Source: a virus. From it: a stretch of DNA of 25,074 nucleotides. The position numbers and the translations under genes were made by a program. The notes beneath the pieces were generated by a model. That model was not told the origin of the DNA. It was given only the letters and a program-made list of their open reading frames with translations, and did not search any database. Positions 1 to 20,192 of this stretch are shown here, in pieces (within the stretch, counting starts at the first letter, position 1; every line of letters starts with the position of its first letter). Where the stretch lies: positions 1 through 25,074 of the IMG/VR virus record IMGVR_UViG_3300036859_001058; one strand, written 5' to 3'.

Positions 1-231
1 ATGTTGACCACACTCGCTCATCGTTTTTGGCGCTTTTTTGATGGAGACTTTGAAGCAAGGATTGACCTGCAATGTGCCATGGCGCGACGCCTCCTTGACA
101 AGAAAGGCAATGCACGGATGGATGCCTTTCAGCAATGCCGCGATGAGATTAATGTACGAAGCTTTATATGCGCCATTGGGCTTCTCATCTCAATTGGAAT
201 GGTCATCGTGTTGATGATGCTGACGCGGTGA
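1..231 (+). CDS. Small membrane protein, unknown function (start possibly outside window)
   Basis: Encodes 76 residues if the ATG at base 1 is used; the true start may lie before the window. The first two thirds are charged and helical (basic and acidic residues mixed, with a cysteine in QCAMARR and another in QQCRDE). The last about 22 residues form one hydrophobic segment beginning SFICAIGLL and ending MMLTR, so this is probably a tail-anchored single-span membrane protein. I do not recognise a family. Its TGA shares one base with the ATG of the following methyltransferase (TGATG at 229-233), so it is probably the first visible gene of the sugar operon and translationally coupled to it. A role in anchoring the glycan enzymes to the membrane is only a guess. 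Confidence 0.5.
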   Translation: MLTTLAHRFWRFFDGDFEARIDLQCAMARRLLDKKGNARMDAFQQCRDEINVRSFICAIGLLISIGMVIVLMMLTR

Positions 232-788
232 TGGACCCGTTAGCTTACTACCGCGACCTCCTGGCGAAGTACGGGCCGACCTATCAGGCGGTGGATGCAG
301 GGAGCGAGTATACGCACGGGTTACGGCTAAAAATACTCAGCGAGATTATAAAAGAAGCAGGAGTGACAATCTTAGATGTGGGTTGTGGCCTTGGAGATTT
401 AGTGAATTACGCTGGCGCGGGCGGTACATATCGCGGCATTGATGTCATTCCTGAAATGATCGACGCGGCGCGGCTGAAATATCCTTGTTACAGCTTTGAG
501 GTTGGCGACATCGCGAACCCGAAGCCTGAATGGAAAGCCGATTATGTAGTAGCGAGCGGGCTGTTTCAGTTTCCCTGTCCTTGGCTCACCATTCTTTTGA
601 CCATGTATGGATTGTGTCGAAAAGGGGTAGCGGTGAATTTCCTGAGGCGTGGCGCGAAGGCTGAACTCACCGTCTCACTAGAGGGAGTCGCCTACGAAGC
701 TGAACAAATATCTCCCTACTTCACCATCCGCGCCGACTATCTGCCCAACGATTTCACGCTCTATTTGTGGAAGGAAAGGCCAACATGA
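231..788 (+). CDS. Class I SAM-dependent methyltransferase
   Basis: 185 residues from the ATG at 231, chosen because it overlaps the upstream stop as TGATG; an earlier in-frame start at 168 would lie deep inside the upstream gene. Motif I is ILDVGCGLG (residues 47-55), the glycine-rich SAM-binding loop of Rossmann-like methyltransferases. The acidic residue that normally binds the ribose follows in GIDVIPEMI (D71), and GDIANPKPEWKADYVVAS resembles motifs II and III. The substrate cannot be read from the sequence. Lying directly before a NeuB-like synthase and in the same operon as other sugar enzymes, it most likely methylates a sugar or a glycan end. The stop overlaps the next start as ATGA. 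Family assignment is firm; the substrate is inference. Confidence 0.85.
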   Translation: MDPLAYYRDLLAKYGPTYQAVDAGSEYTHGLRLKILSEIIKEAGVTILDVGCGLGDLVNYAGAGGTYRGIDVIPEMIDAARLKYPCYSFEVGDIANPKPEWKADYVVASGLFQFPCPWLTILLTMYGLCRKGVAVNFLRRGAKAELTVSLEGVAYEAEQISPYFTIRADYLPNDFTLYLWKERPT

Positions 789-1549
789 GAACCTGTTACA
801 TTATTGCCGAAGCTGGAAGCTGTCACGACGGCTCGCTGTCACGCGCTGTTACGTTAATCCAAATTGCGGCGGACGCAGGGGCCAACGCTGTAAAGTTTCA
901 GTATTGGTCAGACTCGCACGCCTTAGCCTTAGCGCGGCATGACGAGAATCTGGCCTCGTTTTACGAGCCATACCGCATGCTAAAAGGCTGGCTTGACCAC
1001 CTATCGGCAGAAGCCAAGCACCTCGGCTTGGACTTCCTCTGCACTTGCTATCTCACCCAGGACATTCCCACCATCGCGCCCTATGTGGACAGGTTCAAGA
1101 TCGCCTCGCCCGATGCGCTGAATGAGCCGTTCATTACCGCGCACCGGCGCTATGAAAAGGAAATTATCGTGAGCGTCGGGATGCTGACGGAACTGGAACT
1201 GTACGACGTGCCCACCGAATACACGCGGCTGCATTGTGTGTCGGCGTATCCATGCCCACTGGAGCAAGTGAACCTCGGAGCCATCCGGCAGTATGAGTTG
1301 GACGGCTTCTCTGATCACACCGGCGACCCCTGCATGGGAGCCTGGGCGTACTTGGCTGGAGCGAATGTGATCGAAGCGCATATTCGCGCTGACGATACGA
1401 AGAAAAGCAACCCCGACTATCCCCATGCCCTGTCGCCGACCTTGTTCAACGCCTATGTCGCCAACGTGCGACAGGCACAGGAAGCGTGGGGCAGTGGCGA
1501 CAAGGTGACGCAACCAGCGGAAGCGGCAACACGAAAGTACATGGCATGA
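785..1549 (+). CDS. NeuB-family sialic/pseudaminic acid synthase-like protein, without SAF domain
   Basis: 254 residues. Enzymes of this family condense phosphoenolpyruvate with a hexosamine to give a nine-carbon nonulosonic acid. Matching signatures, in order: IIAEAGSCHDG (residues 6-16), NAVKFQY (34-40), FKIAS (104-108), IIVSVGM (127-133), RLHCVSAYP (148-156), GFSDHT (174-179), NVIEAH (194-199) and ALSPTLF (215-221). H178 and H199 sit where the family has its metal-binding histidines. Typical family members have roughly 330-350 residues with a C-terminal antifreeze-like (SAF) domain that covers the active site; here the protein ends just after the TIM barrel. The start at 785 overlaps the methyltransferase stop as ATGA; the earlier start at 767 is less likely. 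Family membership is convincing, but with the missing domain the exact reaction is open. Confidence 0.82.
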   Translation: MRTCYIIAEAGSCHDGSLSRAVTLIQIAADAGANAVKFQYWSDSHALALARHDENLASFYEPYRMLKGWLDHLSAEAKHLGLDFLCTCYLTQDIPTIAPYVDRFKIASPDALNEPFITAHRRYEKEIIVSVGMLTELELYDVPTEYTRLHCVSAYPCPLEQVNLGAIRQYELDGFSDHTGDPCMGAWAYLAGANVIEAHIRADDTKKSNPDYPHALSPTLFNAYVANVRQAQEAWGSGDKVTQPAEAATRKYMA

Positions 1550-2544
1550 GGCTCCTAATTTCTGGCGGCACTGGCTCACTTGGCCTAGCGCTCACGCGGC
1601 ATTTCGTCGGCTCGGTGGAGCGGCTGGTGGTCTTTAGCCGCGACGAGCACAAGCAGGCGCGGATGCACGCGAGCTATCCAGATCATCCCGCCAACCTGCG
1701 CTTCCTGTTAGGCGATGTGCGGGATAGGGAAGCGTTGGTTCACACCATGCACGGCTGCGACACCGTGATTCATGCGGCGGCCCTCAAGCGCGTGGACAAC
1801 ATCTCCTGCCAGCCGATTGAGATTAAAAAGACCAATGTGGACGGGACGCAGAACGTGCTGGAAGCCGCACTGGAAGCAGGGGTCAAGAAGGTCCTGTTGG
1901 TGTCCACCGACAAGGCCGTGATGCCGGAGAACATCTACGGGGCGACCAAAATGATGGCCGAACAGTTGACCACGCAGTTTAATGCCATCAGCTATCCGCG
2001 AGGGATGCGCTGTAGCGTGGTGCGATTTGGGAATCTCTGGCATTCGCACGGCAGCGTGATTGATGTCTGGATGGAGGCAGCGCAGGCTGGCAAGGACTTG
2101 CCGATCACCGACCTCCAAATGACGCGCTTTGTCATGACGATGGGGCAGGCGTGTACCTTTATTGCGCAGGCCCTTGACGACATGGAGGGGGGGGAAATCT
2201 TTGTCCCGCAGTTGCCCACCATGCGGCTCGTGGACTTGGGTAAAGCCATTATTGCCGTGTACGCAACCGCCCCCTGTACCTTAGTGCCAATGGGCCTGCG
2301 CCCTGGTGGGGAAAAGGTGCATGAACGGATGCTCTCGGATGACGAGCCGAAACGGACGCTCACTTGTAAGAGCCGTTTTACTATTATGCCCTCTCATCGG
2401 ACATGGAGCGATGTGCCGTATCGAGAAGTAGGGATGATCCAAACATCCTTCCGTGCTATCGCTCCATTTACGAGCGAAGATGCGCCACGCCTCTCCATCG
2501 AAGAATTGGCCCTACTGCTCAAAACGGAGGTGCCGGAGCGATGA
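1546..2544 (+). CDS. UDP-sugar 4,6-dehydratase, PseB/CapE type (extended SDR)
   Basis: 332 residues from the ATG at 1546, which overlaps the previous stop as ATGA. N-terminal NAD(P) motif GGTGSLG (residues 7-13), then VVFSRDEHKQ (28-37) and HAAALKRV (76-83), both typical of the PseB/FlaA1/CapE group. The active-site stretch is STDKA followed by YGATK: T121, D122, K123, Y131 and K135 match the catalytic set of UDP-GlcNAc inverting 4,6-dehydratases. Such enzymes produce a 4-keto-6-deoxy sugar, the substrate of a PseC-type aminotransferase; the next gene is of that superfamily. Length is normal for the family. The exact sugar (towards pseudaminic acid, L-FucNAc or another) cannot be told. A run of eight G lies inside the gene (2187-2194). 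Confidence 0.88.
   Translation: MRLLISGGTGSLGLALTRHFVGSVERLVVFSRDEHKQARMHASYPDHPANLRFLLGDVRDREALVHTMHGCDTVIHAAALKRVDNISCQPIEIKKTNVDGTQNVLEAALEAGVKKVLLVSTDKAVMPENIYGATKMMAEQLTTQFNAISYPRGMRCSVVRFGNLWHSHGSVIDVWMEAAQAGKDLPITDLQMTRFVMTMGQACTFIAQALDDMEGGEIFVPQLPTMRLVDLGKAIIAVYATAPCTLVPMGLRPGGEKVHERMLSDDEPKRTLTCKSRFTIMPSHRTWSDVPYREVGMIQTSFRAIAPFTSEDAPRLSIEELALLLKTEVPER
2187..2194 (+). repeat. G8 homopolymer inside the sugar dehydratase gene
   Basis: Eight consecutive G span GAG GGG GGG GAA (Glu-Gly-Gly-Glu, near residues 214-217 of the dehydratase). In this sequence the reading frame is intact. Poly-G runs in surface-glycan genes can serve as slipped-strand phase switches. The run is also a common place for length errors, and a second run of eight G occurs on the coding strand of a virion gene (C8 on the plus strand at 7012-7019), so it is not specific to this gene. 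Confidence 0.35.
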
Positions 2545-3167
2545 CGGGCCGCGACGCCTTGACCAGCAGCCGCCAAGCCTTTGAGGTGGTGGATGCCTTT
2601 GAGCAGGCCGTGGCGCGGTACACCGGCGCGCCCTACTGCGTGGCGGTGGATAGCGGGTGTAATGCGCTCGTCCTGGTACTCGCTACAATGCGCGACACCT
2701 ATACAACGCTGTCATTGCCAGCCAAAACCTATGTTGGCGTAGCGATGGCAGTGGCGGCTGTCGGGATCACTATTGAATGGCGAGATCAAGAATGGTCTGG
2801 AGCTTATCAATTACTTCCCGCTCCTGTGTATGATTCGGCGCTCTGTTTTACTTCTGATATGTATCGAGCAGGAACATTCGTCTGCCTGTCCTTCCAAGCC
2901 TCCAAGCTGCTGCCCATAGGCCGTGGAGGGGCCATTCTCCATGATGATCCTGCGTTTGATAAATGGGCACGCCGCGCCCGCAACAATGGCCGTGCGGAAG
3001 GGGCGCTGTGCGGTAAGGAGCACGGCTTTCCTCACCTCGGCTGGAATATGTGGATGACGCCGCCGGACGCAGCGAGAGGGTTGTGGCTGCTGACCTACTA
3101 TCCTGAGCATATGCCCGACCAACCCAACGATTTTGACGACATCAGCGGAGAGGAGATTTTCAAATGA
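2541..3167 (+). CDS. DegT/DnrJ/EryC1-family PLP aminotransferase, short form
   Basis: 208 residues from the ATG at 2541 (ATGA overlap with the dehydratase stop). Family members transfer an amino group to nucleotide-linked keto sugars. Visible landmarks: AVDSGCNALVL (phosphate-binding SGT-A region), LPAKTYVGVAMAV, the cofactor-ring aspartate in PVYDSALCF, and LSFQASKLLPIGRGGA with the lysine expected to bind PLP. HLGWNMWMTPPDAARGL corresponds to the GxNxxM...AA.G motif. The protein stops about there, so the C-terminal small domain of the usual ~380-residue enzyme is missing. The order dehydratase then aminotransferase matches PseB-PseC. The core catalytic residues look complete, so this may be a true mini-enzyme or one that needs a partner. 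The stop overlaps the next start as ATGA. Confidence 0.78.
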   Translation: MTGRDALTSSRQAFEVVDAFEQAVARYTGAPYCVAVDSGCNALVLVLATMRDTYTTLSLPAKTYVGVAMAVAAVGITIEWRDQEWSGAYQLLPAPVYDSALCFTSDMYRAGTFVCLSFQASKLLPIGRGGAILHDDPAFDKWARRARNNGRAEGALCGKEHGFPHLGWNMWMTPPDAARGLWLLTYYPEHMPDQPNDFDDISGEEIFK

Positions 3168-3784
3168 ACGTTCTGATTGTGGCGGCGCACCCCGACGACG
3201 AGGTGCTGATGGCGGGGGGCACCCTGGCACGGCTGGCGCAGGAAGGGCATACCATCTATCTCGCCATTCTGGGCGTGCGCCATCTGCAAACCGAGGCGAA
3301 CGCCGTCGCAGCGTTGCTAGGAGCCAGCCGCCCCATGGTCACTCAGCTACCCGATCAACGCTTTGACAGCGTGGATTTGCTGGACATGACCAAACAAATT
3401 GAAACGGTCATCGTAGCGACGGCAGCCGAGGCCATCTACACCCACCACACCGCCGACCTCAATCTTGACCACGCCTTGACCGCGAGGGCTGTGCTGACGG
3501 CAACGCGCCCAAAACCGGGCTGTCCGGTCAAGGATGTCTATATGGGGGAGGTGCCATCCTGTACGGAGTGGGGGTTTAATTACCAATTCAAACCTAATGT
3601 GTTTGTAGACATTACCACCACGCTAAATACCAAGCTCAAGGCGATGACGCTCTATACAAGCGAAATGCGGCCCTTTCCACATCCACGCTCACCCGATATG
3701 CTCACGGCGAATGCTCACCATTGGGGGGCTGTGGCTGGGTGCGGCACGGCGGAAGCCTTTGAACTGGTGCGGAGCCTGCGATGA
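3164..3784 (+). CDS. PIG-L/LmbE-family N-deacetylase
   Basis: 206 residues. The N-terminus carries VAAHPDDEVLMAGG with the AHPDDE zinc motif (residues 8-13). The second metal motif is HHTADLNLDH (94-103), with H95, D98, D102 and H103 in the usual spacing. This zinc hydrolase family removes N-acetyl groups from GlcNAc-type sugars (GlcNAc-PI, mycothiol, bacillithiol and antibiotic pathways) and also from nucleotide or lipid-linked sugars. Length is normal or slightly short. Translation is coupled to the aminotransferase by an ATGA overlap at 3164-3167. In this cassette it probably deacetylates the amino sugar so that another acyl group can be put on, or it edits the product; the substrate is inference. 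Confidence 0.9.
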   Translation: MNVLIVAAHPDDEVLMAGGTLARLAQEGHTIYLAILGVRHLQTEANAVAALLGASRPMVTQLPDQRFDSVDLLDMTKQIETVIVATAAEAIYTHHTADLNLDHALTARAVLTATRPKPGCPVKDVYMGEVPSCTEWGFNYQFKPNVFVDITTTLNTKLKAMTLYTSEMRPFPHPRSPDMLTANAHHWGAVAGCGTAEAFELVRSLR

Positions 3785-4347
3785 ATTTGGAAGCATGGTG
3801 GAATACAAATATTAAAATTCCATTACCATGGGTTAGAACTTTGCCACCATCTTACTGGTTGGCACAAAAGATAGGTGATCCACATGGCAGTGACAAGTAC
3901 AAGGACTTGCAGCCGGAGAGTTATGCCATGTTCAAAGCCATACATCAGGTGGCCTCTCCTAAATCCTTCCTCTTTGATGTCGGCTGCCAAGGGGGGCGGC
4001 ATATGAAAGCCTTGCAGCGGCGTGGCTATGGGCACGTCACTGGGCTCGATGTGCGCCCTTGTCTCCATGCGCTGCAAGGCACCTTTGAGGCCGTGCTGCC
4101 GACGTTGCCAACCCACGCCTTTGATGTCGTGTTCACCTTCGGCATGACGATTGAACTGGTGCCGCCCTCGTTCCCTATCTGTCATCACATGGCGCGGATT
4201 GCGAAAAAAGCGGTGGTACTGATGGTGATCGAGAAGGGCGTCCCGTACCCGCGCCTCTATCAGCAGGAGTTTGCGCGGGAAGGCTTCACGCTCACTACAT
4301 ACAAGCCATGCGGAGGACACCACTTGTGGGTGTTTGAACGGCGATGA
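3781..4347 (+). CDS. Second class I SAM-dependent methyltransferase
   Basis: 188 residues, starting in an ATGA overlap with the deacetylase stop. Motif I is LFDVGCQGGRHMKAL (residues 64-78), and TGLDVRP (87-93) provides the acidic ribose-binding residue D90. AFDVVFTFGMTIEL matches the motif following strand 4. The N-terminal 60 residues, including DPHGSDKYKDL, may form a substrate-specific lid. It shares little beyond the fold motifs with the methyltransferase at 231-788, so I see two separate acquisitions rather than a recent duplication. It probably acts on the same glycan or its precursor; the substrate is unknown. Confidence 0.82.
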   Translation: MNLEAWWNTNIKIPLPWVRTLPPSYWLAQKIGDPHGSDKYKDLQPESYAMFKAIHQVASPKSFLFDVGCQGGRHMKALQRRGYGHVTGLDVRPCLHALQGTFEAVLPTLPTHAFDVVFTFGMTIELVPPSFPICHHMARIAKKAVVLMVIEKGVPYPRLYQQEFAREGFTLTTYKPCGGHHLWVFERR

Positions 4348-4988
4348 GGGACGTGCAGATCATACGCGGGGCGGTCAAAGCGATACCAACAATTCCTGTT
4401 CATACCGATACCCGTGGGCGCATTTACGATGATCTGTGGCCGCTGAATATCGCAGGCCGCTATTGCTCAAACTATGCGTGGCTCGTGGCTCACCATCTGA
4501 GACCACTCTATCCCAATGGTTGGAACGCCCATGATTCGATGATTCTAACCACCTCCCGCTATCCCTATTCTGGCCGCTGGCACCGGGACGCGCCGCCCTA
4601 CGAGGAGGATACGATTGTCTTACTCTGTCTGGATGGCTGGGACGAATTGGAATGGTGCGAGGATGCCTCGGCGGTGGCGGGTACGCGGCAACGGCCTCCG
4701 CATCCGCAACGGCATACCTTCGCCAACTTGTATCCTGGCGACCTCCTGCTCCTCCCCGCCTCCACCTGGCACCGGGGCCGTTGTTCGACGAACCGCATCA
4801 CCTACCACGTCAGGGTCGGTCCTAAAGGCCGCACTATGCCGGAATCGCCTCCTGACCGGCTGCCCCCCATGACGCTCAAACGGTTCGTCAAGCGCACTCT
4901 GTCCACCTTGAGCTACTATCTGCTACGGCTACCGGAGGACCATTGGCTGTGCGAGCGGTATAAATGGATCGTGCCGCGTTTTCGCTAA
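4344..4988 (+). CDS. Putative Fe(II)/2-oxoglutarate dioxygenase (phytanoyl-CoA hydroxylase-like)
   Basis: 214 residues, ATGA overlap with the previous stop. The assignment rests on an ordered set of residues. RWHRDAPPY gives H80-x-D82; about 60 residues later YPGDLLLLPASTWHRG gives H143 after a PGDLLLL strand; then NRITYHVRVG gives R151. This HxD...H...R order is that of the PhyH-type double-stranded beta-helix dioxygenases, with iron held by the two histidines and the aspartate and 2-oxoglutarate by the arginine. The last 45 residues are basic and helical. In phages and in glycan clusters such enzymes hydroxylate small molecules or nucleotides; here a sugar or lipid is likely. The match is a motif reading only, so confidence is moderate. 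Confidence 0.5.
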   Translation: MRDVQIIRGAVKAIPTIPVHTDTRGRIYDDLWPLNIAGRYCSNYAWLVAHHLRPLYPNGWNAHDSMILTTSRYPYSGRWHRDAPPYEEDTIVLLCLDGWDELEWCEDASAVAGTRQRPPHPQRHTFANLYPGDLLLLPASTWHRGRCSTNRITYHVRVGPKGRTMPESPPDRLPPMTLKRFVKRTLSTLSYYLLRLPEDHWLCERYKWIVPRFR

Positions 4989-5554
4989 CTTGGGGAGTAA
5001 AAGGACAGATTCGCGTTCTTTTGCTTACCGGCGCGCAGGGGCAACCGCCTGAAGATTTGCTCGACGCCGCACGGGACGCCTTCCAGAGCCCCTTAAACTT
5101 CGAGGTGCGGGTCAAACTCCATCCCGTCCACTACAACCCCACTGGGAGGCTTCTGGCGCGTCTGAGGGAAGAATTACGCCATCTGTTCCACATGGAACAG
5201 CCCTGGTGGTGGATGGTGGGGGTGTCGGCACCTGGCCGTTTTCCACCACATTGGACGTTTCTCAAGAGCCGTGGATGGAGAGATACAAGTTATATCAAGC
5301 ACTTGGAGTGGGCGGATATCATTGTCTACGATACCACGACCTTGGCAACTAAGGCTACCTGTCCGGTGCTGCACTGGATTGGCCGTGAGCGCATCTGGCG
5401 GTACAACCCTGCCAAGGCGCAGGAGGTGGGCGATCCGCTACGGCTGCGGTACGAAGCCTACCGGCTGGGCCGTGGGCCTGCCATGAAACGGGGGCTCGCG
5501 GTCTGGCGGCGGCGCAACGGGGCGATTATTTTGCGCGAGTACGGGGCGATCTAA
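4964..5554 (+). CDS. Half-length transferase resembling CDP-glycerol/capsule polysaccharide transferases
   Basis: 196 residues from the only in-frame ATG, which overlaps the dioxygenase gene by 25 bases, unlike the 4-base overlaps elsewhere. The recognisable protein begins around KGQIRVLLLTG, so a nearby non-ATG start is possible (GGGGAG lies at 4991-4996). VRVKLHP (residues 48-54) and WADIIVYDTTTLATKA (116-131) resemble the KlHP and DySS-type motifs in the C-terminal half of TagF-like glycerophosphotransferases and capsule synthesis proteins with a GT-B fold. Those enzymes are about twice as long, so the acceptor-binding N-terminal half is absent. It could move a sugar or glycerol phosphate to the cassette product. 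Its TAA overlaps the stop of the holin candidate on the other strand. Confidence 0.45.
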   Translation: MDRAAFSLTWGVKGQIRVLLLTGAQGQPPEDLLDAARDAFQSPLNFEVRVKLHPVHYNPTGRLLARLREELRHLFHMEQPWWWMVGVSAPGRFPPHWTFLKSRGWRDTSYIKHLEWADIIVYDTTTLATKATCPVLHWIGRERIWRYNPAKAQEVGDPLRLRYEAYRLGRGPAMKRGLAVWRRRNGAIILREYGAI

Positions 5555-9513: not shown

Positions 9514-10127
9514 TAGCCCGTTCCTGTTGGTTTTGCTGGTGTAGGACTATACGCTGCCTGCACCCCAAAGCTGCTCGCCGACCCCACGCCCGTGCCGCCG
9601 CCCACGCCAAGAATGGTCTTGAGGAAGTCAATCATTTGGTTGATACTGGCTTGGGTGAGTTGCTCCGGCACCAGAAGCTTATTGAGAATGTTCTGTCCCG
9701 CAACGGGCATCGCAAACTGCGCGAACTGCGGGGCCACATGCTGCGCGGCTGATCCGGCAATATTCGCCACGGCGTTGGAATTGAGAAAGCCGCGTGCCGC
9801 CTGATTGCCGGAAAAGCGCGACAGAGCTTGCGTCACGGCTTGATTAAAGCCCGTGTCGTAGAGGTTCTGCTGCTCTTGGAACAGGCCGGAACTGGTCAGT
9901 CCTGGCAGTTGATAGCGGCTGATGGCTTCCGGCGAGAGCCGTGCCTTGAGGAAGGGATTGACAAAGTTGCCTGCCGTGTAGCTGCCGAGATTGCCGAGTT
10001 GAGCGCGAACGGCGGGCGACAGACCGCTCTCCTGGCTTTCCTGCTTCTCACTAGTTTCATACGCACCGCTGATGCCAAACAGCAACGGCGCATAGCCGAG
10101 GATGCTCCAATCTAGGAACTCAAACAT
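9513..10127 (-). CDS. Small virion protein, third ejection-protein candidate
   Basis: 204 residues from the ATG at 10127, preferred over a TTG at 10145 because AAGGAG lies 5 bases before the ATG. The N-terminus (FEFLDWSILGYAPLLFG) is hydrophobic. The middle is Gln/Asn/Ala-rich and helical (FSGNQAARGFLNSNAVANI, AAQHVAPQFAQFAMPV), and the end is a Gly/Ser/Pro-rich tail. The composition is like short podovirus internal proteins. It overlaps the end of the GNAT gene by 16 bases. No enzyme motif is present. Confidence 0.5.
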   Translation of the reverse strand: MFEFLDWSILGYAPLLFGISGAYETSEKQESQESGLSPAVRAQLGNLGSYTAGNFVNPFLKARLSPEAISRYQLPGLTSSGLFQEQQNLYDTGFNQAVTQALSRFSGNQAARGFLNSNAVANIAGSAAQHVAPQFAQFAMPVAGQNILNKLLVPEQLTQASINQMIDFLKTILGVGGGTGVGSASSFGVQAAYSPTPAKPTGTG

Positions 10128-10549
10128 GGTGTCTCCTTGCCCCAAAAGTCAAAGGTGGTGCGTTCCCCGTGCGCCGTGGGGGTGCCTCTGACACGCCCCA
10201 TCGCCCCCATTCGCGCCCCCCATTCCGTCGCCGTGCGCCAGAGCCGGTTCGCCAATCCTGTGCCGCGATACTCAGGCCGCACCGTCAGCGCCCATTCTTG
10301 CATATAGGGTACATCTGGCACAAAGCGATGGGTGAGGATTTCCACCCCGCACATGCCTGCCAAGATGCCCCGATCGTCCGCCACCCAGCAGCGATGCTGC
10401 GGCTGCTGCAAATAGCTCAGCACTTTCGCCTGTACATGATCGTAATTCGGCACAAAGGCGACGGCCTTCCATGGCGTCTCCTGCTTCATGCCCAATATCA
10501 GCATCACCACCCCATGCAGATCACCCAGCGTGGCTTCACGAATCACCAT
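10112..10549 (-). CDS. GNAT-family acetyltransferase
   Basis: 145 residues. Motif A of the GNAT fold is plain: EWALTVRPEYRGTGLANRLW, where RGTGLA (residues 95-100) is the acetyl-CoA pyrophosphate loop. The N-terminus MVIREATLGDL is the usual first strand and helix, and CWVADDRGILAGMCGVE fits strands 2-4. GNATs occur now and then inside the structural gene runs of phages; their substrates are mostly unknown. Here it lies between an appendage protein and an ejection candidate, sharing a base with the upstream stop (TGATG). It might modify a virion protein, a host protein or a sugar amine made by the phage cassette; nothing in the sequence decides. Confidence 0.8.
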   Translation of the reverse strand: MVIREATLGDLHGVVMLILGMKQETPWKAVAFVPNYDHVQAKVLSYLQQPQHRCWVADDRGILAGMCGVEILTHRFVPDVPYMQEWALTVRPEYRGTGLANRLWRTATEWGARMGAMGRVRGTPTAHGERTTFDFWGKETPCLSS

Positions 10550-11265
10550 CAGTTCGCCACCTCGTAGACCGTCAAGGAGGAGGTGAGGGAACCGTTAAAG
10601 AGAGCGCCAGAACCCCTGCCATTAAGTTGAAAATTATTAGTTTGAGAAGCAAAGCGAATCGCATAACTCGTGGTCGCCGTCGAAACGGTGGTGGCCTGCC
10701 AGAGAAAGGAGCCCGCGTTATTATTTGGAGTTACTCCACCATCTTGACACCAAAGACTGTAGACCGATATAGCTGAAGTTGATCCAGCGAGAAATAAAGC
10801 AGCAAACACAGACTCTTCGCCACTCTGCATAGTCCCGTTATAATCAATCCTCGCATAGACTCTATTCGTGCTTGCTTGCGGTTTAATGTTTACCAAGAGC
10901 GAATCGCCGAAGCTCGTACCTTGCGTAGAAAGAAATGGATTGTTGCTAAGAGTCACGTTCGCTGAACTCGTTGTGACTCCCGTTAAGGCCGCTGACACCA
11001 TCTGCACTAACTGTCCTGAGCTTTTCGCTGTCGGGATGGAGGCGGAGGCCGCAATTAAATCCACCACGGTCTGGCTGGCCGCATTGATACGGGCTCGCAC
11101 GCTGGCATGGGAGCCACGCGGAAGCCGCCCCATCTCGGTTTCTACCGCAATCAGCGCAAGGCCCAGGCCCCCTGGATGCGCTGCAATCACGGTATTCGTC
11201 ACCGCCGAAATCGTATCCAGCGCGGCGGGATAACTGGTCGTGCCTTGCGTGGTCAGATTGCCCAT
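10549..11265 (-). CDS. Virion appendage protein, paralogue A
   Basis: 238 residues. The N-terminal region (GTTSYPAALDTISAVTNTV, then LALIAVETEMG) is of the YP..LDT...AVE.E.G type found at the start of many tail-fibre, head-fibre and other phage appendage proteins, where it is thought to anchor to the virion. The C-terminal ~150 residues (LVQMVSAALTGVTT, GTSFGDSLLVNIKP, GSFLWQATTVSTATT, ending LTVYEVAN) are shared with the proteins at 11268-11984 and 13660-14226. It is Ser/Thr/Gly-rich and beta-like. Likely a fibre or decoration subunit, possibly receptor-binding. Part of the gene (about 10620-10960) is more AT-rich than its paralogues. Confidence 0.6.
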   Translation of the reverse strand: MGNLTTQGTTSYPAALDTISAVTNTVIAAHPGGLGLALIAVETEMGRLPRGSHASVRARINAASQTVVDLIAASASIPTAKSSGQLVQMVSAALTGVTTSSANVTLSNNPFLSTQGTSFGDSLLVNIKPQASTNRVYARIDYNGTMQSGEESVFAALFLAGSTSAISVYSLWCQDGGVTPNNNAGSFLWQATTVSTATTSYAIRFASQTNNFQLNGRGSGALFNGSLTSSLTVYEVAN

Positions 11266-11267
11266 CG

Positions 11268-11984
11268 TTAGTTCTGCACCTCATAGACCGCCAGGGTGGA
11301 CACCAGTGAATTATTAAACAATGCTTGCCTGGCAATCCCGTTAATAGTGGCTGTGCCGCTGGAGGCACCGTAGGCGAAGCGAATGAGATAGGCGGTCGTG
11401 GCCGCCGAGACGGTCGTGGCCTGCCACAGGAAGCTGCCCGCATTGACCGCAGTACTTGAACCCACAGCACACGCAGTAATCGCGGACGTGGAGCCGGCGA
11501 GAAACAGTCCCGCCACAACGGTGGCCGTGCCAGCCGCCTGAAAGGTGAGCAGCGCGTAGACATCGTTCAGCACCGACGTGGGCTTGATATTGACCAGCAG
11601 CGAGTCGCCGAAGCTCGTGCCCATGGTGGAGGCAAAGGGATTGTTGGCGATGGAAATGGTGGCAAACGGCCCCGTGGTCGTGACGCCCGTAATCGAGGCG
11701 GCGAGATATTGCACCAAGTCGCCGCTGCGCTTGTTCGTGATCGTGGCGGAGGCTGCCGTGAGATCGGTAATGCTCGTATCCAGCGTATCGAGCCGCGTCT
11801 TGACATCCGTATAGGCCCCTGCCGGGTCGGTGCCGAGTTCCGTTTCCACCGCAATGACCGCGTTCGCAGGGCCGTTGTAATTGGGCGAGACAATCTCGCT
11901 GCCGCTGCTGCCATCCGTCAGCGTGGTCGCCGTGTCCAGCGTGGTCGGGTAATCGCTCGTGCCCGTTGTAATAATGTCGGCCAT
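11268..11984 (-). CDS. Virion appendage protein, paralogue B
   Basis: 238 residues, the same length as paralogue A, from which it is separated by two bases. The N-terminus has GTSDYPTTLDTATTL and NAVIAVETELG, then a short helical stretch (DVKTRLDTLDTSITDLTAAS). The C-terminal domain repeats the family landmarks GTSFGDSLLVNIKP, LFLAGSTSAIT, GSFLWQATTVSAATT and the ending LAVYEVQN. Identity with paralogue A is high in patches even at DNA level (for example around cgccgaagctcgt), pointing to tandem duplication. Probably a fibre or surface appendage; no enzymatic motif seen. Confidence 0.6.
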   Translation of the reverse strand: MADIITTGTSDYPTTLDTATTLTDGSSGSEIVSPNYNGPANAVIAVETELGTDPAGAYTDVKTRLDTLDTSITDLTAASATITNKRSGDLVQYLAASITGVTTTGPFATISIANNPFASTMGTSFGDSLLVNIKPTSVLNDVYALLTFQAAGTATVVAGLFLAGSTSAITACAVGSSTAVNAGSFLWQATTVSAATTAYLIRFAYGASSGTATINGIARQALFNNSLVSTLAVYEVQN

Positions 11985-11992
11985 ACGTGCTC

Positions 11993-13660
11993 CTAACTGA
12001 CCGGGATCGTCCGTCTGACCTGGACCTGGGGTAATATATTATTCAGCACAAAGTTCCCGTTCGTGTGGCGAATCTGCACCTGAATCGCGTCCCCGAACAT
12101 GGCCTCCGTGCTTTGTGACGCCACGTCGGTTTGCCCGATGCTCTGCCCCACCGTCGCCCCATAGGTAAAGCCGCCGTTATACGTCACGCTCGTCCCATAG
12201 CGGTTCGTAGTAAAGGCCGTGCCGTCAATCTTGGTAATCGTCAGCAAGTCCACCGCATTGCCGTGCAAATCCTTGAGCGTCACCGTCGCGTTTTCAATGC
12301 TCCCGCTCGCGTCAAAGCGCACCAACGGCATCCACTTGTCGTAGGACGGCGCGCCAAAGTCGTGATAGGTGGTGCGAAAGTCCGCTTCCACATCCTGTGA
12401 TACGCTGCCGATGCGGTCGGTAAACACCCCGGACGGATTGAGCGTATAGACATACAGCCCCACCGTGGTATCCCCTTCGCAGCCCCGTAGGGCATCGGCA
12501 TCGCTGCCAGATGATTCCACCCACACTTCAGAGAGCGATTGCCCCGTGTGCGGCCCCGACCAGGACAGCTTCGCCAAATCCGCCAGCGCGGGGACCGCTT
12601 GCAGTTGGCGCACATCCAGCCAGTATTGCACGGTGCTGTAGCCGTTGCTCCCGACCGGCAGATAGAGCTTGAGCTTGCGGTCGTGATAGCGCATCCGCAC
12701 CTGCCCCAACTGGCTCCGGTTAACATCGTTCGTGCCGTCAATGTCCGTGCGGTTGGAAAACAGCTTATCGGCGATCAGCTTCGGCACGGACGAGTCAAAC
12801 GACAGCCACGCCACGTTTGCGTCCTGCGTAAACCAAAACGTCCCCACCCCCGGCACCGTCACCAAGGAAAACGGGGAGCGCGTGCCCATGCGCGGCGACA
12901 GCAGCACCAATGCAGCGTCCCACGTCAACGGCGGCGTGGCGGCGGCCACATTATCGCCAAAATCGTTTCCCACCAGCGCCGTCAGCGAGGATTCCTGAAA
13001 AATCAGGAGTTGCGCCTGCGGGTTGTTGTAATTCCCTGTCAGCGAGTGCAAATGCAGCGCCGTGGGCGGCCCCGTGCCCCCGCTGGGCCGATACACGGCC
13101 CAGGTCGAGCTATTCGGCGACCACACGGCGTCCGTGCGTGGATTGGTACTCCACACGCCATCGCCCTGAATCGCAAAGAGGCGATCCAGAAACGGCACGG
13201 CCATCGTGGGCGAGGAGGGAATGTTTACCCCTGTCACCGTGGCAAACGCCTGCCCTGCCGAAATGGAACAAAGCGTGTTGGACTTATTACATAGATACGT
13301 CGTGTCCGTAATGCTCCAGTTCGCAAAGTGCGTGTCCTGGTCGGAGGTCAAGGTAAACGTGACGGTGCCCAAGGCTCCTGCATCGCTCACCGTCATGACC
13401 TTAGTGGAAAAGGCGACGAGGCGAAAGGCGGAGGCGGTCTGCGGATAGACTCGTGTGCCCCCGCGCCCGCGAAAGGCCCCCTGGCTCACCGTGGTCAAGG
13501 CCGACGAGCCGGTGCGCTTGCGCGTGCCCCCATCGTAGAAGCAGTTGCCAATCCTCTCCGCTTCGCCTGGCTTCAAATCCTCAAGCGAATCGCGCAGGTT
13601 CACCCCAAACACGGGATCACGGTACTGCGCGATCTTGTCAGGCAGGCGGTTGCGGAGCAT
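11993..13660 (-). CDS. Podovirus tail nozzle/stabilisation-type protein candidate
   Basis: 555 residues. The N-terminus (MLRNRLPDKIAQYRDPVFGVNLRD, with SLEDLKPGEAERIGNCFYDGG after it) suits a protein that sits on the adaptor ring. The bulk is beta-rich with repeating blade-like units and regularly placed Trp and Asp: FLDRLFAIQGDGVWSTNP, FWFTQDANVAWLSFD, KLKLYLPVGSNGYSTVQYW. This recalls the propeller-like tail nozzle of short-tailed phages (T7 gp12 or P22 gp10 type). It lies close to the adaptor candidate, as expected. I found no tail-spike hydrolase motif. The role is inferred from composition, size and order. Confidence 0.55.
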   Translation of the reverse strand: MLRNRLPDKIAQYRDPVFGVNLRDSLEDLKPGEAERIGNCFYDGGTRKRTGSSALTTVSQGAFRGRGGTRVYPQTASAFRLVAFSTKVMTVSDAGALGTVTFTLTSDQDTHFANWSITDTTYLCNKSNTLCSISAGQAFATVTGVNIPSSPTMAVPFLDRLFAIQGDGVWSTNPRTDAVWSPNSSTWAVYRPSGGTGPPTALHLHSLTGNYNNPQAQLLIFQESSLTALVGNDFGDNVAAATPPLTWDAALVLLSPRMGTRSPFSLVTVPGVGTFWFTQDANVAWLSFDSSVPKLIADKLFSNRTDIDGTNDVNRSQLGQVRMRYHDRKLKLYLPVGSNGYSTVQYWLDVRQLQAVPALADLAKLSWSGPHTGQSLSEVWVESSGSDADALRGCEGDTTVGLYVYTLNPSGVFTDRIGSVSQDVEADFRTTYHDFGAPSYDKWMPLVRFDASGSIENATVTLKDLHGNAVDLLTITKIDGTAFTTNRYGTSVTYNGGFTYGATVGQSIGQTDVASQSTEAMFGDAIQVQIRHTNGNFVLNNILPQVQVRRTIPVS

Positions 13661-14226
13661 TAGTTTTGCACCTCCGCGACGGTCAGCGCGGATACCACGC
13701 TATTGCCAAACTTGCCCGCGCCCCCCTCGCCATTCAGCGTCGTCGTGCCCGCGCCTGGCCCTCCCACATTCAGCGCATAGGTGGTGCTGGCCGCGCTCAC
13801 CGTCGTGGCCTGCCAGAGAAACGTGACGGGTTGCATGATGCCCGCTGCCGCCGCCTGATTCTTGCAGCCCGTCACGGCGGAGGACGACCCCGCGACGAAC
13901 AAGCCCACCAAGACCTGGGTACTGCCGCTATTGGCCCCAATGAGGTTGCCCCACACATAGACCTGATTCAGCGCGGAGGTGGGCTTCATGGTGACGCTCA
14001 ACCCTAACCGGCCCCCTTCCGCCGCCAGAATCGGCGTATTGTCGTCGGGAATGATGCCGTTCGTCGTCGTAAAGCCCGTCACCTGTGTCGTCACCATCTG
14101 CACCAGCGCCCCGCTCAAATACGGCAATTCCGACGCCGGTACCTTGCCATCGCTGCCCAAACTAGCCGCGCCCAAGGCCACCCCCACATAATTCATGAGC
14201 GTGCGGTAGAACGGCTCGCTTCTCAT
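13660..14226 (-). CDS. Virion appendage protein, paralogue C
   Basis: 188 residues from the ATG at 14226, which overlaps the adaptor stop as ATGA; a start at 14292 would give an extra Gly/Trp-rich tail lying inside the adaptor gene. The C-terminal domain matches paralogues A and B (LVQMVTTQVTGFTTT, VTMKPTSALNQVYV, LFVAGSSSAVTGC, FLWQATTVSAASTTY, ending LTVAEVQN). The YP..LDT anchor of A and B is absent; instead the N-terminus is MRSEPFYRTLMNYVGVALG. So the same outer domain appears to be used with a different attachment part. It lies between adaptor and nozzle genes, which suggests a place close to the tail vertex. Confidence 0.55.
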   Translation of the reverse strand: MRSEPFYRTLMNYVGVALGAASLGSDGKVPASELPYLSGALVQMVTTQVTGFTTTNGIIPDDNTPILAAEGGRLGLSVTMKPTSALNQVYVWGNLIGANSGSTQVLVGLFVAGSSSAVTGCKNQAAAAGIMQPVTFLWQATTVSAASTTYALNVGGPGAGTTTLNGEGGAGKFGNSVVSALTVAEVQN

Positions 14227-15068
14227 CGGTGCCGCTCCACCTGCCCATACGTGGGATTCGCCGCCCCATACTTCAGCTTCATCGCCTCCCACTTCTGCAT
14301 CTCAATCGGGTAGCGATCATCGTCAAACAGCAGCATCGTCTGCACCTTAATGCCCTGCTTCACCAACGACACGCGCTGCTTGAGCCACGCGAGAAACCGC
14401 GCCCCCACTTCGTCCATCATCGTGAGATTCGGCGTATAGCTCATGAGGATGGGATAGATTTTATCCGGTGGGGGCTCCACCGTCAGCGTGCCCCCGATCA
14501 GCCGATACACCGACGGGCGGTACTTGCGCACCACTGGGAGCGTGTCCCCATAGCGCGTCAGCGTCCACGACCACTGGGCAATGAGATAGTCCGTAGTGCT
14601 GTCCGGCGTGGTGGCCCAGGCGTGCGTCAGCGACACAATCTTGGTCGCGTTCGTGTTGTCCGTGATTTGGTTGTACTGGCCGGAGCCAGTGCCCGCCAGC
14701 AGAAAGAGGTAATCGCCGATGTAGGTGTCGTCAGCGGCGCTATCCGCCGCGTCCAGCGTGAGCGCCTGCGTATTGCCGGTCTGCGCCCGCCCCCGCCAGC
14801 CGTCCCCGCCATCAAAGACCGTCAGCGTGCCTTCATGGTCAAAGTCAGGCGGCAGGGCAAATGCGCTGGTGCCCGTCGTCACCAGCACCACCGTTTCCGT
14901 CACTAAAAATAAATCTACCCTAGACGCATCCCACAATTCTGTTTTGACATCTTGAAACCCACGCGCCTGCATATTCGACACTTGGCCAAACGAAACATTC
15001 AAAATGCCCGCGCTGATCATCGCTGCACTAATCGTGGATGTAACTGTTGGGGTGCTTGGAATCGCCAC
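14223..15068 (-). CDS. Head-tail adaptor / tail-tube A-like protein candidate
   Basis: 281 residues, GTG start (an in-frame stop lies shortly upstream, and only a weak GAG is found as ribosome site). Landmarks: N-terminal helices, SAFALPPDFDHEGTLTVFDGG, a beta insertion of about 90 residues (DDTYIGDYLFLLAGTGSGQY), then YRLIGGTLTVEPPPDKIYPILMSY. The C-terminus is helical (ARFLAWLKQRVSLVKQG, DDDRYPIEMQKWEAMK). A strand motif of the type ALP.DF followed by a helical C-terminus is common in podovirus adaptors (T7 gp11 / P22 gp4-like). Position before the nozzle gene agrees. The HNH gene begins only 35 bases upstream, on the other strand. Confidence 0.55.
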   Translation of the reverse strand: MAIPSTPTVTSTISAAMISAGILNVSFGQVSNMQARGFQDVKTELWDASRVDLFLVTETVVLVTTGTSAFALPPDFDHEGTLTVFDGGDGWRGRAQTGNTQALTLDAADSAADDTYIGDYLFLLAGTGSGQYNQITDNTNATKIVSLTHAWATTPDSTTDYLIAQWSWTLTRYGDTLPVVRKYRPSVYRLIGGTLTVEPPPDKIYPILMSYTPNLTMMDEVGARFLAWLKQRVSLVKQGIKVQTMLLFDDDRYPIEMQKWEAMKLKYGAANPTYGQVERHR

Positions 15069-15103: not shown

Positions 15104-15679
15104 ATGGCTAAATGCATTGATATGACTTCATTGAGTGATAGAAATCGCACTTCATGTCGAGCATATTATTACAAGAATCGTCAACGTATAATAGAAACCG
15201 CACGAGAACGGTATGCCAAACTAACAGTCCGAGAAAAACTAGCCCATAATAATCGGCGTAAAGAACTAGAGGCAATCCGTTGGAAAAATCCGACCTATAG
15301 GAAACGATGGCGGGAATATAGGAAGAAGTACGCTCAGGAACATCGCGAGAAATTACGATTATATAGTATTGCAGGCAGACAACGATTAAAGAAACTTGTT
15401 TTCGATGCTTATGGAGGGCCATCGTGTCGATGCTGCGGAGAATCATGCTTGGCATTCCTCGCCATCGATCACATCAACGGAGGTGGACGTAAGCATCAAA
15501 TCGAGTTAGGATCACGCGCCAGATTATATACATGGCTCAAGATGAACAAATTCCCTAAAGGTTTCCAAGTTCTCTGCCACAACTGCAATCACGCCAAGCA
15601 CTTCTATAAAATCTGTCCTCATCAAGCTATGAAACATGACGGAGAGATAAGCCCTCCGCCACGTCATAGCCGACCTTAG
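15104..15679 (+). CDS. HNH homing endonuclease (opposite strand to late operon)
   Basis: 191 residues. The C-terminal nuclease part has CRCCGE (residues 108-113), AIDHINGGGRKH with D122-H123, and GFQVLCHNCNHAKHF with C158, C161 and H163. This is the HNH layout with a zinc-binding cysteine set. The first 100 residues are strongly basic and contain repeated aromatic/basic units (YYKNRQR, YRKRWREYRKKY) that look like DNA-binding repeats of free-standing homing endonucleases. The gene is clearly richer in A and T than its neighbours, a sign of horizontal arrival. It lies antisense inside the minus-strand late operon, between a virion gene and the adaptor gene, and its TAG overlaps the TAA of the virion gene on the other strand. 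Confidence 0.85.
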   Translation: MAKCIDMTSLSDRNRTSCRAYYYKNRQRIIETARERYAKLTVREKLAHNNRRKELEAIRWKNPTYRKRWREYRKKYAQEHREKLRLYSIAGRQRLKKLVFDAYGGPSCRCCGESCLAFLAIDHINGGGRKHQIELGSRARLYTWLKMNKFPKGFQVLCHNCNHAKHFYKICPHQAMKHDGEISPPPRHSRP

Positions 15680-19368: not shown

Positions 19369-19602
19369 CTAGCGGATTGCTAGGCCAAAGCCCTCATAGG
19401 TGCGTCCGTCAAACGTGCGGCTGACCGACGCCGCCGTGGTAATGACAAAGGTTTCCTTCTGGTCGGTGCGGAATTTGGTCTTGCATCGGCATTGCACCAC
19501 CACAAAGGAGTCGCCCGTCAACCACGCATCCACATGCCGCTGCCGACATGTCGGACAGCGCACTTGTAACATAGTGAAATTATGGTTGTCAAGCAGATTC
19601 AT
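19369..19602 (-). CDS. Small zinc-ribbon protein
   Basis: 77 residues. Four cysteines in two pairs, RCPTCRQRH (C16, C19) and VVQCRCK (C38, C40), make a likely zinc ribbon; the rest is short strands (SFVVVQC, TFVITTAAS) and a polar end. The ATG at 19602 overlaps the HNH stop as ATGA and has GAAGG upstream; a second ATG at codon 11 lacks such a site. The role is unknown. Its position between portal and scaffold and before a terminator suggests it closes the terminase-portal block. Confidence 0.65.
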   Translation of the reverse strand: MNLLDNHNFTMLQVRCPTCRQRHVDAWLTGDSFVVVQCRCKTKFRTDQKETFVITTAASVSRTFDGRTYEGFGLAIR

Positions 19603-20192
19603 CTGGCAGCCTTCTGCTTAATCAATCCAAGCCAAACATGATATGGTTTAGACCCCTTACTAGTATTGCAAGATCGGCAGCAAATTAGTATATTGCCAAC
19701 CGTATGAGTACCACCTAGAACCAATGGTTCTTTATGATCCAAACACCTATTTTTGTCTGTTAATAGACGCCCACAGTATGGACATTCAAGAGTCGTTTCA
19801 ATGAAATTTGAGATTACTTGCTTTGTCACCGAGCCGTCATCTGTTGACGACTTCTGGCATCTATACCGATGCCATCGAGCTATCCTTTCTGCCTTGTTTT
19901 TAGCGTACCAAATTCTATCTCTGAGTCGTGCCCGTTCTTTATTAGTATGTCGCCATTTTCTGTTCAAAGCGTTTACTTCGTCTATATTTATTTTAAACAA
20001 TTCTCTCCTTCTTGCAAGAAGGCACTCCCGATTCTTCCTTTTCCAAATTGCCTGATAAGTGCGCTGGTAATCTCTTGTTTTATCTCTATTCTCACGACCC
20101 CATTTAGCCTGATAAGCGCGTACCTTTTCTATATTATTTTTTCTCCATTCGCGCATATAGAGTTTATGCGCCTCTCTTTCTTTATCGGTCAT
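19599..20192 (-). CDS. HNH homing endonuclease within late operon
   Basis: 197 residues. The nuclease core is LECPYCGRLLTDKNRC (CPYC at 137-140), LDHKEPLVLGG (D152-H153), VGNILICCRSCNTSKG (N167, C172, C175). The first 110 residues are very basic, with repeated W/Y-plus-basic units (YMREWRKNN, YQAKWGRENR, YQAIWKRKNR) like the DNA-binding part of other free-standing HNH enzymes. The gene is much more AT-rich than portal and scaffold genes. It is in the operon direction and fitted with ATGA overlaps on both sides, between portal and zinc-ribbon genes. The core differs from the HNH gene at 15104-15679, so they are different subfamilies. Confidence 0.85.
   Translation of the reverse strand: MTDKEREAHKLYMREWRKNNIEKVRAYQAKWGRENRDKTRDYQRTYQAIWKRKNRECLLARRRELFKINIDEVNALNRKWRHTNKERARLRDRIWYAKNKAERIARWHRYRCQKSSTDDGSVTKQVISNFIETTLECPYCGRLLTDKNRCLDHKEPLVLGGTHTVGNILICCRSCNTSKGSKPYHVWLGLIKQKAAR

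Follow-up and report, generated by a model that had tools for sequence, protein, structure and literature searches.

Phages are known in general to carry auxiliary genes for nucleotide sugars (e.g. PMC10980836). According to PMC12053666, epaA and epaB of Acinetobacter baumannii prophages change the host capsule by converting host-made pseudaminic acid (Pse) to 8-epi-Pse, so phages do act on this sugar. The operon described here resembles epaA/epaB in that phage-encoded enzymes would act on pseudaminic acid, and differs in that epaA/epaB, according to the same source, do not build Pse from UDP-N-acetylglucosamine (UDP-GlcNAc). Neither a phage Pse pathway nor a half-size DegT aminotransferase turned up in the open-access literature, represented mostly by titles and abstracts. 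The operon lies at one end of IMG/VR virus record IMGVR_UViG_3300036859_001058, a linear fragment of 25,074 bases; the window, i.e. the whole stretch of DNA analysed, spans the entire record. We consider it probable, on the evidence of its genes, that the operon encodes a divergent phage-borne pathway for a pseudaminic-type (nonulosonic) acidic amino sugar that would alter glycans of the host surface or of the virion. The most unusual part of the cassette is a half-length DegT, hereafter mini-DegT. We put forward only tentatively the fuller proposal that phages evolved this ~200-residue DegT of their own and use it as PseC in a compact pathway to pseudaminic acid that is specific to viruses, spreads as a terminase-side cassette and rewrites acidic sugars of the host surface or virion.

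Open reading frame (ORF) calls confirm that eight successive plus-strand genes, as an earlier note on this DNA had it, form one operon at 231-5554. Six junctions within the cassette are 4-base ATGA overlaps (785-788, 1546-1549, 2541-2544, 3164-3167, 3781-3784 and 4344-4347) and the final one is a 25-base overlap (4964-4988); the previous statement that seven genes are joined by overlaps of 1-4 bases therefore holds only if one counts the 1-base overlap TGATG (229-233) that links the first cassette gene to a short upstream ORF (1-231, plus strand). That ORF, at the contig edge and maybe truncated, has no Pfam or significant PHROG match. The proposed setting beside a phage late operon is borne out: TerL, portal and major head protein were identified by PHROGs, and the late operon, on the minus strand, has its 3' end facing the cassette, the two running towards each other. 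The GC content of the cassette (0.52-0.59) is similar to that of the phage part of the window. Sugar genes stand at both contig ends, the cassette at one and, at the other, upstream of TerL, a full-length DegT aminotransferase cut by the contig end (23935-25074, minus strand; PseC/LegC-like; PF01041, 7.4e-82; TIGR04181, 2.2e-59). Even with its nearest phage relatives, identity in capsid and terminase is no more than ~22-30%. Scans of viral contigs with single proteins (NeuB, last gene, portal) and of genome contigs with NeuB alone gave no matches, so this is a phage without a close relative within reach of those scans. A search of the window for terminal repeats of at least 40 bases gave none.

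A dehydratase, an aminotransferase, a deacetylase, a synthase and two methyltransferases had been named before, and Pfam and NCBIfam support these families. The PseB-type UDP-GlcNAc 4,6-dehydratase (1546-2544, 332 aa; PF02719, 2.2e-77; TIGR03589, 4e-88) matches the solved 2gn4 (FlaA1/PseB) at 1.1e-60 and has the active-site motif STDKA...YGATK intact. The synthase (785-1549) is a NeuB-family nonulosonic acid synthase barrel (PF03102, 2.3e-37 over residues 1-241), which among solved structures is closest to 8h2c, a pseudaminic acid synthase (5.2e-18). Alignment with two phage homologues shows E9, K37, K105, S176, H178, E197, H199 and D211 to be invariant; among them are the residues that serve catalysis and metal binding in NeuB/SiaC. 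The gene stops after the barrel, at 254 aa, and Pfam finds no SAF domain in its product; short-tailed and long-tailed phage NeuBs are well separated in length, and 73 of the 132 that were scored are without the SAF region. The PIG-L/LmbE-type N-deacetylase (3164-3784; PF02585, 4.7e-18; phrog_11796, 2e-26) shares conserved HPDDE and THHTADLNLDH (DxNxDH) motifs with its homologue at locus L006 and keeps the downstream zinc/catalytic histidines. The methyltransferases are MT1, dependent on S-adenosylmethionine (SAM) (231-788; Methyltransf_25, 1.4e-8), and MT6 (3781-4347; Methyltransf_11, 1.3e-4; TIGR03587, 0.0042), which weakly resembles a pseudaminic-acid-associated methylase, matching the Pse-methylase of locus L111 by phmmer at 3e-4. 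The gene list in the earlier note had passed over both the absence of SAF from NeuB and the half length of the DegT.

A candidate JmjC/2-oxoglutarate-Fe(II)-type oxygenase (4344-4988), already proposed as an oxygenase, keeps weak support from a JmjC_2 match below cut-off (0.0026) and from HxD and a distal His visible by eye; it has no solved relative and no relative in phage records. The transferase suggested for the eighth gene (4964-5554) found no support: a glycosyltransferase half-domain is seen by eye only, no family is recognisable, Pfam, PHROGs, NCBIfam, phage records and the viral-contig scan gave no match, and its single-sequence structure model is of low confidence (predicted local distance difference test, pLDDT, 32).

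The mini-DegT (2541-3167), a DegT/PseC-type aminotransferase dependent on pyridoxal phosphate (PLP), has 208 aa against the usual ~370 and matches PF01041 in two separate pieces (4.8e-18). The C-terminal small domain and ~45 residues in mid-protein, part of the large domain, that are found in solved relatives are missing from it. Among 22 aligned mini-DegTs (~195-230 aa), K122 and D98 are invariant and SF, GG and GR motifs and the C-terminal end are conserved, K122 aligning with the PLP lysine K186 of GDP-perosamine synthase; all 75 further mini-DegT sequences likewise have the lysine, the aspartate and the glycine motifs. An AlphaFold model built with the 22 aligned sequences reached a pLDDT of 92.1 and a predicted template-modelling score (pTM) of 0.89. 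Foldseek against the PDB ranks DegT sugar aminotransferases first, with most of the query and only ~40% of the target covered (TMq about 0.6-0.74, TMt ~0.4). As modelled, mini-DegT folds confidently as a truncated DegT, short of the complete two-domain fold of ~360-400 aa. To our knowledge, it would be the smallest fold-type-I sugar aminotransferase.

In a tree of 77 DegT proteins, all mini forms fall into one clade with support of 100/100, the two nominally longer rows in it being ORFs with upstream extensions, and the full-length DegT of the window falls outside. A frameshift or a pseudogene was rejected as an explanation of the short DegT on the strength of the conserved length, catalytic residues and C-terminal end across this supported clade, and of the start of the PIG-L gene within the 4-base overlap of mini-DegT. 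A large subgroup (L166-L178, 8001-8600) ends in G-Y-R/K-D-L, not DYPDLS, and often has no PseB nearby.

The earlier note had proposed looking for the same gene neighbourhood in other phages, and the same gene set does recur in many viral contigs. A NeuB profile, built from three NeuBs, confirmed at least 531 relatives on viral contigs and a PseB search 84; ~10 kb was fetched on either side. The closest NeuB locus among the matches listed, L007, holds a mini-DegT, PseB, SAF-less NeuB and MT1 (42%, 42%, 45% and 37% identical to those of the window), together with a second NeuB with SAF and a cytidylyltransferase (CMP-sugar synthetase), this last and the cassette standing just before TerL and portal. 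The second NeuB paralogue (9298-10350 of L007, with PF08666) directly follows the SAF-less one; by eye several usual NeuB motifs are altered, and it may be a non-catalytic partner. A pooled ORF search found a NeuA-like cytidylyltransferase within that distance in 89 of 105 viral NeuB loci, L007 included. In the window, Pfam and NCBIfam show neither PseF nor PseG among the cassette products, and a local NeuA model finds no CMP-sugar synthetase. The lack of NeuA/PseF and of the UDP-releasing hydrolase from the cassette had been reported correctly; in a linear virus fragment the absence of NeuA or PseG is uninformative. Given the 89 loci that do have it, the simplest explanation for the lack of NeuA is that the fragment stops short.

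A conserved order, PseB - mini-DegT - NeuA - (Pse-methylase) - WbuX amidotransferase - HisF - (GNAT) - NeuB, was found in 16 loci, or ~14 distinct ones, as L111, L112 and L235 are near-copies; TerL lies within the fetched stretch in five of the 16. These loci share about 64-74% DNA identity over partial stretches and so are not one phage counted repeatedly. In them mini-DegT is the only DegT found, at the PseC position; its gene in L110 spans 11017-11643. The sister cassette L110 scores above NCBIfam cut-offs for PseI (365 against 340 bits), Pse-methylase (155 against 112) and WbuX (232 against 203) and near the cut-off for PseF (177 against 206); its HisF protein most resembles WbuZ/AglZ-HisF2, known from acetamidino modification, and its NeuB carries a SAF domain (PF08666). 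These matches indicate a cassette of pseudaminic type with acetamidino modification. Taken with the conserved order, the L110 models above cut-off lead us to read the pathway of these phages as a near-complete one for pseudaminic acid, with mini-DegT as its only DegT. PseF-type cytidylyltransferases are also short (~190 aa; L110 12331-12909, L096 2747-3331), which suggests that several pathway enzymes are compacted in phage cassettes.

Mini-DegT is common in viral contigs, where a profile scan confirmed at least 586 relatives, and it hardly occurs in those cellular genomes that were scanned. A sensitive profile, applied to cells in one phylum only, matched a single one of 299 proteobacterial genomes and none of the other 298; the match, in a Thiobacillaceae metagenome-assembled genome (MAG; G001), stands on a viral-looking contig, L164, with a PseB-miniDegT-NeuA-methylase run among phage-like genes. 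None was found in 72,556 plasmids. A scan of genome contigs, which used one peptide present in 18 of 83 mini-DegT matches and alone does not show absence, gave two contigs, L164 and L165, the latter from a Sulfuricaulis MAG, with terminase-like and portal-like proteins read by eye. The L165 cassette comprises mini-DegT, a radical SAM protein, WbuX, PseB and a UDP-GlcNAc 2-epimerase-type protein, and may be a different sugar route employing the same mini-DegT. Mini-DegT also lies within glycosyltransferase clusters of two phages in culture, as gp172 of Flavobacterium phage immuto and in Synechococcus phage S-SCSM2R. Mini-DegT is thus almost confined to viral sequence, a distribution which suggests that viruses make these surface sugars in a way of their own.

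The intact motifs, the recurring gene set and the relatives in which PseI, Pse-methylase and WbuX exceed their cut-offs support the nucleotide-sugar or nonulosonic-acid interpretation given before, which had overlooked that the aminotransferase is of a half-size phage type. From these we infer, as follows, which substrates are used, in what order the reactions run, which sugar results and what purpose it serves. PseB would dehydrate UDP-GlcNAc to a 4-keto-6-deoxy sugar, and C4 of this product would be aminated by mini-DegT, or else by the full-length DegT at the far end of the contig. PIG-L would strip an N-acetyl group, freeing the site for another substituent; the GNAT acetyltransferase of the late operon (10112-10549, minus strand; PF00583, 1.3e-11) is a possible source of an N-acetylation step. 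NeuB would then condense the freed six-carbon sugar with phosphoenolpyruvate, and the two methyltransferases, perhaps with the oxygenase, would decorate the product. A cytidylyltransferase encoded past the contig ends, or else the host, could supply the activation with cytidine monophosphate (CMP), and the activated sugar would probably be used by host or off-contig glycosyltransferases. The outcome would be, in line with the two uses that the earlier note suggested, an altered glycan on the surface of the infected cell, most likely directed against competing phages, or on the virion. The same GNAT could alternatively modify virion proteins.

It is rather unlikely that mini-DegT is a degenerate remnant, or a regulator that binds PLP or a sugar, leaving amination to the full-length DegT. 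The loss of the small domain and of ~45 large-domain residues would fit that idea, as would the full-length DegT in the same window; however, the lysine and aspartate are invariant in all 75 further sequences, no full-length DegT lies within reach in 24 of the 26 loci that carry a mini-DegT, and mini-DegT sits at the PseC position of near-complete Pse cassettes. Many loci have PseB, PIG-L and DegT without NeuB, the cultured-phage mini-DegTs stand among hexose glycosyltransferases with no NeuB annotated in the region, and no CMP-sugar synthetase is visible in the window, all of which would suit a cassette making a decorated nucleotide-linked amino-deoxy hexose for the phage's own virion or tail glycan, with NeuB acting on another aldose or being a side branch. 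We consider this unlikely, as NeuB is intact and tightly coupled by 4-base overlaps to MT1 and PseB, and the great majority of viral NeuB loci do have a CMP-sugar synthetase nearby. Host clusters for O-antigen or for flagellin glycosylation typically hold enzymes of these families, and the contig is metagenomic, but that the cassette is a bacterial surface-sugar cluster, recently acquired (as a moron) or misassembled and without phage function, is very improbable: mini-DegT forms a phage clade missing from the 298 other genomes of the phylum and from plasmids, the cassette is similar in GC content to the phage part, sugar genes lie at both contig ends, and similar cassettes recur near terminases. 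Assembly error joining a host O-antigen locus, raised earlier as what would refute the phage interpretation, is made unlikely by the recurrence of PseB, mini-DegT and NeuB beside terminases in independent phage contigs and by the near-confinement of mini-DegT to viral sequence. DNA hypermodification was set aside, since NeuB, PseB and DegT point to nucleotide sugars.

Several points weigh against a phage-borne pathway for a pseudaminic-type sugar, the reading that we prefer. The window PseB (295 bits for TIGR03589, under the equivalog cut-off of 407.75) and NeuB (138 bits for NeuB_NnaB, ahead of 103 for PseI, both below cut-off) do not reach equivalog level, and so do not pin down the exact sugar, pseudaminic or sialic-like. 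The window has no visible CMP-sugar synthetase, PseG hydrolase or adjacent GNAT, and of the last two cassette genes the oxygenase has a sub-threshold match and the final gene none. The mini-DegT of the window deviates from its clade, with SGC for SCT and NGR for D/EGR, and the open-access literature yielded no biochemistry of any mini-DegT.

Elsewhere in the late region, three paralogous proteins are encoded on the minus strand (10549-11265, 11268-11984 and 13660-14292), with shared repeats that are 75% and 62% identical in DNA over 71 bases to the first copy; the one of the three that was searched has no family match, and they are probably tail or fibre-like virion proteins. Two HNH-like ORFs are inserted there, at 15104-15679 (plus strand; HNH-like by eye only) and 19599-20192 (minus strand; HNH_5, 1.1e-7). 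Both are in local GC dips (0.49-0.52), and so look like mobile homing-type endonucleases.

If the proposal is true, small phages directly control acidic surface sugars, which can serve as phage receptors. Cyanophage AG-345-L05 (MH319754, L004) is similar in having a SAF-less NeuB (272 aa), directly preceded by a DegT, with a CMP-sugar synthetase-like gene upstream; it differs in its large Kyanoviridae genome with many glycosyltransferases and in its full-length DegT, no mini-DegT being found there. With the bacterial pseudaminic acid pathway (PseB-PseC-PseH-PseG-PseI-PseF) the window shares a PseB-type dehydratase, a DegT, a NeuB/PseI-type synthase and a Pse-methylase-like gene, to which the sister phage cassettes add PseF, WbuX and HisF/WbuZ. 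Unlike that pathway, the version in the window is phage-borne, has a half-size aminotransferase, a SAF-less NeuB and an added PIG-L, and shows no PseF, PseG or adjacent PseH in the fragment. Mini-DegT shares its core PLP fold with GDP-perosamine synthase, ArnB and WbpE, along with the catalytic lysine and the aspartate that binds the cofactor, whereas it measures ~200 aa against 359-445 aa in solved DegT relatives and does without their C-terminal domain and middle segment; as a working aminotransferase, it would redefine the lower size limit of PLP sugar aminotransferases.

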